Of a DNA stretch of 64,000 bases, positions 4,236 through 6,760 are shown in pieces. The notes beneath the pieces are model-generated. The model ran no database searches and was not told where the DNA came from. It saw nothing but the letters and a program-made list of their open reading frames with translations. The stretch is taken from NCBI RefSeq assembly GCF_000784355.1, contig NZ_KN360926.1, positions 66,497 through 130,496 of the forward strand, given 5' to 3'. The DNA comes from Methanolacinia paynteri (GTDB taxonomy: Archaea > Halobacteriota > Methanomicrobia > Methanomicrobiales > Methanomicrobiaceae). Made by a program: the position numbers and the translations under genes. Numbering within the stretch: the first letter of the stretch is position 1; every line of letters starts with the position of its first letter.

Positions 4236-4856
4236 ATGAATTCCGAATATTACGCAGTCGATATCGCACTAATACCAGAAAGAGAGACTCTTGATTTTTT
4301 TATCGGCCTGAACAGGAGACTTATAGAGAAAACCGGGGACGATTCCATACGCTTGGGAGATTCCGCCTGTCTTCCGCATATCTCGCTTGCCATGGGCAGG
4401 GTTCATGCATCATGCATAGAGGATATCAAAGAAATACTTTCGGTGGTTTCGGGGTTTCTTCCCTATAATGCGGCCTACAAAGATTATGCGGTCGTCGCAG
4501 GCTCAAACGGAGATCAGATTTCAGGATTGGATATAGTAAGGGACGATATGATTGCCGGGTTGCAGGAGATTGTCGCCGGAATACTGGGAGAGTTCAGTTC
4601 GCACGGGATGACGCCCGAATGTTTCTCCGGGGATGCATCCGCGATCACTGATTTTTCTCTCGATTATTCGGAGAATTATCTCGCACGACAGACGGGAGAT
4701 AGTTTTTCACCGCATATTACGATTGGCAACGGGAATATCAGGAAGGTTGAAGATATTCAGCCGCCGGCAAATTTTTCATGCGACAGGATTGCCATATGCC
4801 GTCTCGGGAATCACTGCACATGTGCGGAGCTTTTGGAGAGCATTAAGGGGATCTGA
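4236..4856 (+). CDS. 2H phosphoesterase (LigT-like) protein
   Basis: A 206-residue protein with the two signature H-x-[ST]-hydrophobic motifs of the 2H phosphoesterase superfamily: HIS at 48-50 (PHISLAMG) and HIT at 160-162 (PHITIGNG). The family includes RNA 2'-5' ligases and cyclic phosphodiesterases acting on 2',3'-cyclic RNA ends. The spacing and length suit the superfamily, but the substrate is unknown. It starts 15 bases after the disulfide reductase and may be its last operon partner. A three-hairpin repeat begins about 35 bases after its stop. Confidence 0.75.
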   Translation: MNSEYYAVDIALIPERETLDFFIGLNRRLIEKTGDDSIRLGDSACLPHISLAMGRVHASCIEDIKEILSVVSGFLPYNAAYKDYAVVAGSNGDQISGLDIVRDDMIAGLQEIVAGILGEFSSHGMTPECFSGDASAITDFSLDYSENYLARQTGDSFSPHITIGNGNIRKVEDIQPPANFSCDRIAICRLGNHCTCAELLESIKGI

Positions 4857-4890
4857 TTTTCTTTGGCTCATTGCAGTCTCATGTTTTTCT

Positions 4891-5065
4891 CAGGCGACCC
4901 CGGGCACCACAGACCGGAGGCTGGTGGACGGCCCCTGCCCAGGGGCCTTGCCTTAAGATAGTTCTCTCACGGCACGCCCGGGGAACCGGCGAGGGTTCCC
5001 CGTGCTGTTTAATTTAGTTTTGTTTAGTTTGTTTTGAAATCCGAATTAAGATCCTTTAGATCTCC
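4891..5065 (+). repeat. Three-hairpin intergenic repeat, copy 1
   Basis: This matches the element at 6505-6666 over about 160 bases. It holds three stem-loops in order: an imperfect stem at 4907-4927, a perfect one at 4930-4947 (GGCCCCTG-CC-CAGGGGCC), and a third with 8-bp arms at 4980-4987 and 4994-5001 (GGGGAACC/GGTTCCCC). A conserved linker of 33 bases includes CTTAAGATA and TTCTCTCACGGCACGCCC. It begins about 35 bases after the stop of a plus-strand gene. Stem changes relative to copy 2 are compensatory, so the structure rather than the sequence appears to be kept. A BIME/REP-like element or a 3'UTR RNA are both possible. Confidence 0.8.
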
Positions 5066-5165
5066 TGTTCCGGTTCCAATAAATTTAGTAGATTATAATC
5101 AATTTTTTTTGTAAATATAATCGAGTTTAACAAATTATATTATCTTAAGTCAAAAATATTTGTGG

Positions 5166-6485
5166 ATGAACTCGTGCCGAGATCTGGTTTACCGGTTTTT
5201 TAAATTAAAAGATAACAATACAACGATTAAAACGGAATTTACTGCAGGTGTCGTCACTTTCATGACGATGGCATATATCCTGGTCGTCAACCCTGCGATC
5301 CTGCTTGCGGCCGGGATTCCGTTCGGCCCGGCTGTTGCCGCTACGATTATCACGGCAATATTCGGGACGGTGATAATGGGGGTTTATGCGAACCGCCCGT
5401 TTGCAATCGCACCGTATATGGGCGAGAACGCCTTCATCGCGTATACGGTCTGCGGGGTTATGGGATATTCCTGGCAGACGGCACTCGGGGCGGTTTTCAT
5501 CAGCGGAATTCTTCTGACCGTCCTTACGATCGCGGGCGGACGGACGATTATGTGCGAAGCGGTCCCGGAGAGCTTGAAGTACAGTTTTGCGGCAGGGATC
5601 GGTCTCTTCATTACATTCGTCGGGCTTGTCAACTCGAAGATAGTTGTTCTCGGTACTGAGACGGCACCGGTTCATATCGGGGATTTGAACAGCCCGGAGG
5701 TTATGCTTGCGGTCTTCGGCTTCATCCTGATCTCGGTGATGGAGCTTCGAAAGATCAGGGGATCGATCCTCTTCGGCATAGTTATTGTCTCCCTTATCGG
5801 GTTCGTCTCCGGCCTGGTGGCGTACCCGGAGGCGATATTCAGCCTTCCGCCGGATATCTCGCCGGTGTTCCTCCAGCTTGATGTCGCCGGGGCACTTACA
5901 TGGGGAATGTTTGCTGTTATCCTGACGATTTTCACGATGGCCTTCCTCGATACTATGGGCGGGCTTATCGGGGTATCGGCACAGGCGGGTTTCCTGGATG
6001 AAAAAGGAAACCTCCCGGATATAGAGAAACCGTTCCTCGCGGATGCTCTTTCGAATATATTTGCGGGCCTTGCAGGGACGACTACGAGCGGTGCGTTCAT
6101 GGAATCGGCGACCGGAGTTCTCGCGGGGGGAAGAACGGGGCTTACGGCTATCTTTGTAGCGATTCTTTTCGCATGTTCCCTCTTCTTAACGCCCCTGTTT
6201 ATTGCGATTCCTTCGGCCGCGACAGGTCCTGCAATGATTATGGTCGGACTAATAATGATGCGGCCGCTGGTGAAGATCGATTTTTCGGATTACAGCGAGA
6301 TGATCCCGGCGTTTGCGGTGATCATCCTGATGAGTTTTACATATAATATCGGGGTCGGGATATGCAGCGGGTTTGTTCTTTATCCGCTCTTCAAGATCTT
6401 CGCAGGAAAAAAAGAGGATATAAATCCGTATTCATGGATTCTGTTTGCCCTTTGTCTTCTGTTCTTTATCTTCTATCCATACTGA
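5166..6485 (+). CDS. AzgA-family purine permease
   Basis: A 439-residue, highly hydrophobic transporter of the NCS2/AzgA family, which imports hypoxanthine, guanine or adenine with protons. Family marks include the N-terminal TEFTAGVVTFMTMAYIL segment, NRPFAIAPYMGENAFIAY, and TMGGLIGVSAQAG followed by ADALSNIFAG. About 12-14 membrane segments are visible. A TTG at 5160 opens the frame, but the ATG at 5166 is the more usual codon; neither has a strong ribosome-binding site. It is a single gene flanked on both sides by copies of the three-hairpin repeat. I saw no purine riboswitch in the 5065-5165 leader. Confidence 0.93.
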   Translation: MNSCRDLVYRFFKLKDNNTTIKTEFTAGVVTFMTMAYILVVNPAILLAAGIPFGPAVAATIITAIFGTVIMGVYANRPFAIAPYMGENAFIAYTVCGVMGYSWQTALGAVFISGILLTVLTIAGGRTIMCEAVPESLKYSFAAGIGLFITFVGLVNSKIVVLGTETAPVHIGDLNSPEVMLAVFGFILISVMELRKIRGSILFGIVIVSLIGFVSGLVAYPEAIFSLPPDISPVFLQLDVAGALTWGMFAVILTIFTMAFLDTMGGLIGVSAQAGFLDEKGNLPDIEKPFLADALSNIFAGLAGTTTSGAFMESATGVLAGGRTGLTAIFVAILFACSLFLTPLFIAIPSAATGPAMIMVGLIMMRPLVKIDFSDYSEMIPAFAVIILMSFTYNIGVGICSGFVLYPLFKIFAGKKEDINPYSWILFALCLLFFIFYPY

Positions 6486-6504
6486 TTTTTTACAAATATT
6501 AGCT

Positions 6505-6666
6505 TGGCAACCCCGGCACCGGCGGCCAAGCCGCCGGACGGCCCCTGCCCAGGGGCCTTGCCTTAAGATATTTCTCTCACGGCACGCCCGGGAGACCGAC
6601 AAGGGGTCTCCCGGACTGTTGAATTCGTTTTTTTTTGAAAATCCGGAACGAGACTTTTTAGATCCA
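6505..6666 (+). repeat. Three-hairpin intergenic repeat, copy 2
   Basis: Second copy of the element at 4891-5065, in the same orientation, beginning 20 bases after the azgA stop. Stem 1 is perfect here (arms CCGGCGGC and GCCGCCGG, 6519-6537). Stem 2 (6540-6557) is identical to copy 1. Stem 3 has arms GGGAGACC (6590-6597) and GGTCTCCC (6605-6612). The distance between stems 2 and 3 is 33 bases in both copies. The matching sequence continues past stem 3 into a T-rich tail and a TTTAGATC motif. Confidence 0.8.
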
Positions 6667-6760
6667 TTGTATTATTCTATGAATTCATCGCGGCGAGGGG
6701 TTGTCAAGAGTTGAACTTTTTTTTATGCAAAAAAATGGTAGGATGCCTGATTTTTTTCTT

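Follow-up and report, generated by a model that had tools for sequence, protein, structure and literature searches.

Intergenic hairpin repeats of Methanolacinia are probably partly decayed, non-autonomous ISL3-type elements and carry a hexaloop hairpin found across Methanomicrobiales

The DNA analysed here, a 64,000-nt stretch of the Methanolacinia paynteri genome (the window), carries two copies of a structured repeat on its plus strand, at 4893-5019 and 6506-6632. As an initial annotation of the sequence had noted, both copies begin shortly after stop codons; the module at 4893 follows a stop at 4856 by 36 nt, and that at 6506 follows a stop at 6485 by 20 nt. Their stem 2 is identical, and pairing is kept in stem 3, which reads GGGGAACC/GGTTCCCC in one copy and GGGAGACC/GGTCTCCC in the other. 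The spacing between stems 2 and 3 is indeed equal in both copies but measures 32 nt, not the 33 bases given there. The window contains GGACGGCCCCTGCCCAGGGGCC exactly two times, and likewise the linker; neither appeared in any of 100 shuffles. Copy 2 folds far better than shuffled sequences (z -3.9) and copy 1 weakly better (z -1.4), stem 1 being degenerate in copy 1. The three hairpins belong to a larger unit and form just its left half (module L), since most copies of the repeat go on into an inverted, diverged module R. The features in the window, including a terminal inverted repeat (TIR), are as follows.

4865-4888, plus strand: degenerate left TIR of copy 1 (GGCTCATTGCAGTCTCATGTTTTT); most of its outer 20 bases match the TIR consensus GGCTCTTCGCTGTTTCATGTGGGT
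4893-5019, plus strand: L module of copy 1, hairpins 1-3 and T-rich tail; covariance-model match at C27:71389-71517 of the M. paynteri genome, 123.9 bits
4893-4897 with 4948-4952, plus strand: outer helix GGCGA/TTGCC of copy 1, from the alignment
4930-4947, plus strand: hairpin 2 of copy 1, from the alignment; hairpin 1 is degenerate
4980-5001, plus strand: hairpin 3 of copy 1 with the hexaloop, from the alignment
4988-4993, plus strand: hexaloop GGCGAG (consensus GRCRAG) in hairpin 3 of copy 1; the loop is conserved order-wide
5019-5110, plus strand: second-type tail of copy 1 (..GATCCTTTAGATCTCC..AATAAATTT), lacking the R module, like the tails in loci L020, L029 and L032
6506-6632, plus strand: L module of copy 2; covariance-model match at C27:73002-73128 of the M. 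paynteri genome, 144.2 bits
6506-6510 with 6558-6562, plus strand: outer helix GGCAA/TTGCC of copy 2
6519-6537, plus strand: hairpin 1 of copy 2
6540-6557, plus strand: hairpin 2 of copy 2
6590-6612, plus strand: hairpin 3 of copy 2
6690-6705, plus strand: outer-end remnant of the R module of copy 2 (GCGGCGAGGGGTTGTC); the remaining R is deleted

The tail of copy 1 is another repeat, which flanks several copies, and no target duplication could be demonstrated for this copy. The orthologue of copy 2 in the sister species Methanolacinia petrolearia SEBR 4847 (position 1371039) retains the complete L-R core. Both stem-3 variants of the window have close counterparts in the M. petrolearia orthologues; they are therefore probably older than the species split and not independent events in the window.

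BLAST gave at least 40 matches in the M. paynteri genome (G000). The covariance-model search proposed in the initial annotation yielded 60 L matches there and 62 in M. petrolearia (G001), a few of them partial; further copies thus exist in number, and an alignment of 41 of them shows covariation (see below). L copies were collected from these two genomes by the covariance model and a profile search. In G002, the third genome of the genus, a related short form occurs as just two copies in tandem. Among the relatives sampled beyond the genus, a single weak match was the only trace of the L sequence, and scanning named genomes, a set from which near genomes are probably missing, for exact occurrences of the L core gave no match. 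Only tRNAs exceeded the Rfam gathering threshold in the window and in ten order-wide loci. We found no description in the literature of the Methanolacinia repeat, of hairpin repeats in Methanomicrobiales, or of archaeal ISL3 MITEs, and a keyword search of the two genome papers (PMC3035365 and PMC4149034) returned no mention of intergenic repeats.

In module L, an outer 5-bp helix GGCRA/TTGCC closes a three-way junction that contains hairpins 1 and 2; a linker then leads to hairpin 3, which is followed by a T-rich tail. The reverse complement of R has the same order, GGCAACCCC, a hairpin, a hairpin GGCCCC, a linker, and a hairpin GGGG..CCCC. A covariance model built from L only detects R on the opposite strand beside L, at about 40 bits (E about 1e-7), and direct alignment of L with R scores 89.5 against a maximum of 61 in 200 shuffles. 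The conserved L-R core spans 281 nt, and outside it lie variable arms ending in inverted repeats. A full copy (about 450-490 bp) comprises a left TIR of about 24 bp, an arm of about 100 bp, L, a spacer, R, an arm of about 50 bp, and the right TIR, with an AT-rich target duplication of 8 bp at its flanks; at about 350-490 bp, the units are too short to hold a transposase gene. A further repeat, TTTTACATGAAAATCACGTTGTGATTTACATGAAACAGT..CATGAAACCTTTGTTTCATGAACG, occurs in the spacer or tail of several elements of both genomes (L005, L012, L032, and L037).

The outer ends are inverted repeats of about 24 bp (GGCTCTTCG...GTGGGT). Both ends were recognizable in only 21 of about 106 copies, and these gave the TIR consensus GGCTCTTCGCTGTTTCATGTGGGT / GGCTCTTCGCTAATCTGTGTGGGT, which is of the ISL3 type (GGCTCTT...). 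For target duplications, the ends were sought in each copy and the adjoining bases compared with shuffled ones. Across the 21 copies, the adjoining 8-mers agree at 103 of 168 positions against 61.5 ± 6.5 after shuffling (z 6.3). The signal is clearest at length 8 (z 0.6 at k=6 and 1.4 at k=7) and peaks at offset 0, a shift by one base losing most of it. Eight copies have duplications of at least 7/8, and four are perfect, for example AGCAATAT on either side of C4:2281 and TTTTATTT at C31:86354 of M. paynteri.

Such ends and duplications are known from ISL3 elements: a report on Microcystis (PMC11448079) gives ends GGCTCTTCG and 8-bp duplications for ISL3 transposases and a matching MITE. An Acidithiobacillus copy annotated as ISTfe1 family shows a perfect 8-bp duplication beside the ends GGCTCTTCGTCGGATTGAGTGGGT / GGCTCTTCGTCATTTCAAGTGGGT; this copy has no hexaloop hairpin, and in three other bacterial ISL3 loci no such ends were found. 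A Methanospirillum stamsii locus (L353) holds a complete 1403-bp element (5227-6629) with such ends and a perfect 8-bp duplication, TATTTGAT, whose 403-aa protein matches DDE_Tnp_ISL3 (PF01610) with E 7e-73. The transposase gene lies on the minus strand (5241-6452), and between its start codon and the right end of the element stands a relative of the hairpin module (6495-6566) with two hairpins, the second having the loop GACAAG. Since a TATA-like sequence, TTTATATAA, lies about 24 nt before the start codon, the module would be upstream of the likely promoter and would be reached by transcripts that enter from outside. The same arrangement recurs on another Methanospirillum contig (L327), whose transposase is 74% identical and cut by the contig end; L353 is the only complete autonomous element found. 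In Methanogenium, two loci, of 277 and 351 bp, are MITEs that have such ends and 7/8 duplications, each carrying one hexaloop hairpin, on different stems.

Since the TIRs and 8-bp duplications match those of ISL3 elements, we conclude that the repeats are very probably partly decayed copies of a non-autonomous ISL3-type element (MITE) of Methanolacinia. They share with the ISTfe1-family copy and the M. stamsii element the ends of about 24 bp (GGCTCTTC...GTGGGT) and the AT-rich 8-bp duplications, and differ from ISL3 insertion sequences in having two inverted structured modules and no transposase gene. An autonomous partner in the same genome is usual for a MITE but not defining, as partners can be lost. 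PF01610 had no match in the three Methanolacinia genomes, whereas the control gave matches in 4 of 14 genomes; mobilization in trans by an ISL3 transposase in Methanolacinia is therefore something that we infer. Viral contigs matched neither the hairpin nor the transposase. The ends are usually the best-conserved part of a MITE; the outer arms of the Methanolacinia element are far more degenerate than its modules, which is unusual. When the left arm was used to look for a distinct transposon sharing these ends in the two genomes, nearly all matches adjoined L modules and the rest resembled remnants, and the lead was rejected. Among known systems, the 187-nt ISL3-type MITE of Microcystis aeruginosa (PMC11448079) is likewise non-coding, with 9-nt ends GGCTCTTCG, 8-nt direct repeats, and a stem-loop interior, but it belongs to another organism and has another interior, and the available part of the report describes no internal loop conserved across an order. 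QMITE2 of Coxiella burnetii is likewise a MITE with a structured core lying mainly 3′ of genes, with direct repeats of 7-9 bp and terminal repeats of 23-29 bp; its core is smaller, its host is different, and no order-wide conserved hairpin is described in the portion available (PMC10969869).

Comparison of the two species bears on mobility. Most copies lie at orthologous sites, while 16 copies in M. paynteri and 12 in M. petrolearia were unmatched by their flanks, some of these being internal deletions and not absences (522259 and 766006). Because orthologous L modules are 91.0% identical, close to their flanks (91.9%) and above paralogues (85.8%), most insertions are older than the species split. 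Five shared sites are inverted relative to their flanks. For C44:140526 and C41:182092 no other copy is as similar as the orthologue, which suggests true inversions at these two sites; others may be replacements. Head-to-tail L-R arrays with a period of about 315-355 bp differ between the species in copy number (5/3/2 vs 2/1/1) and lie at:

M. petrolearia C1:1681745-1682208
M. petrolearia C1:1689197-1689878
M. petrolearia C1:1694497-1695832
M. paynteri C39:1068-6676

With TIRs, 8-bp duplications, species-specific insertions, in-place inversions, and internal deletions, the suggestion of a mobile palindromic element made in the initial annotation is borne out.

The same annotation had proposed a selected structure, which gains support from covariation within the genus and from a loop conserved across the order on changing stems. 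In the 41-copy alignment, both sides have changed at 9 of 36 pairs, with 33 cells compared with 11.0 ± 5.0 in shuffles. Across Methanomicrobiales, the stem-3 hairpin shows a GRCRAG hexaloop on changing stems far more often than expected by chance. When the loop was fixed and the three inner stem positions were left free, 49 of 93 order sites outside Methanolacinia and G002, among the matches listed, were perfectly complementary (hand count), about 1.5 being expected at 1/64; eight different inner triplets occurred among the matches listed. Conversely, with the stem fixed and the loop free, the loop was GRCRAG on either strand in 23 of the 46 matches listed, Methanolacinia and G002 excluded, against about 0.1 expected (hand count). 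A scan of 84,980 species with the 20-mer GGGGATRGRCRAGYATCCCC found 51 stretches; from its specified bits, chance alone would give about 7.5 in the entire collection. Of these stretches, 41 are in Methanomicrobiales (Methanoregula, Methanolinea, Methanofollis, Methanogenium, Methanospirillum, and others) according to the titles of their records or their flanks, and none of the 41 lies inside a called gene. Owing to related sites within genera, which are non-independent, the expectations in these three tests are not exact probabilities. An alignment of 22 sequences shows both-sided change at 7 of 8 pairs and serves as illustration only, its rows having been chosen for pairing. A competition of the hexaloop GGCAA with the 5′ GGCAA for TTGCC was considered and discarded, the loop variants GACAA and GGCGA showing no covariation with TTGCC.

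Changes on both arms of a stem might instead arise by replication-templated correction of imperfect palindromes (quasipalindrome mutation), without selection on structure, an explanation that concerns the covariation alone and is compatible with a MITE. Some pairs have few one-sided intermediates (column 91/117 has 18 TA, 17 CG, and 1 TG), and internal deletions between palindrome arms occur, as such a process would predict; it leaves unexplained, however, why the GRCRAG loop is conserved across genera with different stems, and we regard it as doubtful.

Helices 1-3 of L contain 44 A.C mismatches and 18 G.U wobbles, an excess that argues against selection on a plus-strand RNA as the initial annotation had envisaged. 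Read on the strand used for L, hairpins 1 and 2 of R have 42 G.U and 19 A.C. Relative to module orientation, the biases of L and R favour the same strand, namely the one running into the transposase gene of the M. stamsii element. The outer helix has the opposite bias, 44 to 1, mainly in one column. As changes are shared by descent, the strand bias is a hint only.

We then considered position relative to genes, using our own gene calls based on codon usage. Both neighbours were called for 106 copies: the flanking genes are convergent at 47 and divergent at 16, and at the remaining sites the genes are in tandem, with the copy facing in their direction in 27 cases and in the opposite one in 16. 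The excess of convergent over divergent sites (47 vs 16, normal approximation, p about 1e-4) is real, because the two kinds of gene pair are equally frequent on a circular chromosome. The tandem sites, 27 with and 16 against the gene, do not differ significantly (p about 0.1). The statement that the repeat is always 3′ of genes thus holds for the two window copies and fails for the family, 16 of 106 copies lying between divergent genes.

On these counts it is very unlikely that the module is a 3′ UTR or terminator RNA family, transcribed at mRNA ends and ending or stabilizing the transcripts, with the T-rich tract after hairpin 3 as terminator. Such a reading could draw on the convergent excess, on the covariation of stem 3, and on the T-rich tract that, in most L copies, comes after a GC hairpin. 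Against it stand the freedom of gene orientation, with no significant difference among tandem sites and with copies between divergent genes, the five shared sites inverted between species, the TIRs with 8-bp duplications, the excess of A.C over G.U on the plus strand, and the absence of any Rfam match; the 3′ UTR family suggested initially is accordingly not supported. Target duplications of 8 bp together with TIRs are a sign of a DDE transposase, unlike movement of the RAYT/IS200 type. REP/BIME-like palindromes moved by a single-strand (HUH, RAYT-type) transposase recognizing the hairpins themselves are the least credible alternative: the GTAG and CGTC superfamilies (PMC3733652) likewise form intergenic palindromes, inverted dimers, and clusters, and the conserved loop could be a recognition feature, but the Methanolacinia element is larger, has terminal repeats and target duplications that point to a DDE transposase, shows no conserved GTAG/CGTC tag at the hairpin foot in two alignments, and shares its ends with an element encoding an ISL3 transposase.

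For the preferred reading, a non-autonomous ISL3-type element, we propose the following history. The hairpin module would derive from the non-coding region between one end and the transposase gene of a Methanomicrobiales ISL3 element, in which the conserved hexaloop probably acted as a putative binding site or transcription boundary (insulator) shielding the transposase gene from read-in. The elements would have been moved, mainly into AT-rich intergenic DNA, by an ISL3 transposase provided in trans, and purging of insertions in promoter regions would have left the bias toward gene 3′ ends. The element explains a good part of the intergenic repeats in the two Methanolacinia genomes.

MITE interiors are usually regarded as passengers. 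Here a hairpin whose loop is fixed while its stems change persists in an ISL3 element, within the non-coding part, in the MITEs of that element, and, in many genera of a single archaeal order, in repeats that lack TIRs, and such persistence points to a recognized structure; the order-wide conservation suggests a role of the hairpin yet to be discovered. We favour the view that this role would be that of a boundary or insulator, the structure having come from the parent insertion sequence. ISL3 ends were unrecognizable at most hexaloop hairpins elsewhere in the order, and the examined stretches of hairpin-carrying repeat families in Methanoregulaceae contained neither ISL3 ends nor a transposase, so the hairpin may predate the transposon or be independent of it. 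A broader proposal, which we advance tentatively, is that the hairpin could be an order-wide functional motif with a dedicated RNA- or DNA-binding factor, once an insulator between the end and the promoter of the ISL3 element and since retained by several repeat families, in part serving as bidirectional boundaries at the ends of genes. To our knowledge, mobile-element regulation and 3′-end formation are little studied in Methanomicrobiales, and the hairpin of about 26 nt offers a concrete bait for finding its partner.

Several further repeats were met. Long intergenic repeats of Methanoregula, Methanolinea, and relatives (L297-L301, L314-L331, and L339-L350) combine the hexaloop hairpin with a second conserved part (..CCCTTCGGGCCGGGCTCCTCCTCTCCC..GGGAGAGGCAGT), and no ISL3 ends were found in them. 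Contigs binned as Syntrophorhabdus, Acidobacteria, and Bacteroidota (L304, L307, and L335) carry the Methanoregulaceae-type repeat and are probably misbinned. In M. petrolearia, L modules are missing from about 0.86 Mb of contiguous chromosome spanning coordinate 0 (0-0.499 Mb and 2.485-2.843 Mb), about 60 being spread elsewhere, and L insertion or retention seems to avoid this part of the chromosome. The insertion at C1:2118139 of the same genome (L176) is flanked by an imperfect duplication of about 30 bp, far longer than the usual 8 bp. Mapping of empty sites also revealed another M. paynteri repeat (GGGCATAAGCCCCTTCGGGGCAGCCCAGGCGC..CGGCCTGGACGC) with about 30 or more copies, for example at C14:3786, C34:20250, and C32:145199. 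Finally, a GRCRAG hairpin with the stem GGGGATG/CATCCCC lies at the very ends of three M. paynteri contigs (C8:54, C11:21, and C26:12), so that a further hairpin-carrying repeat family probably broke the assembly at these points.
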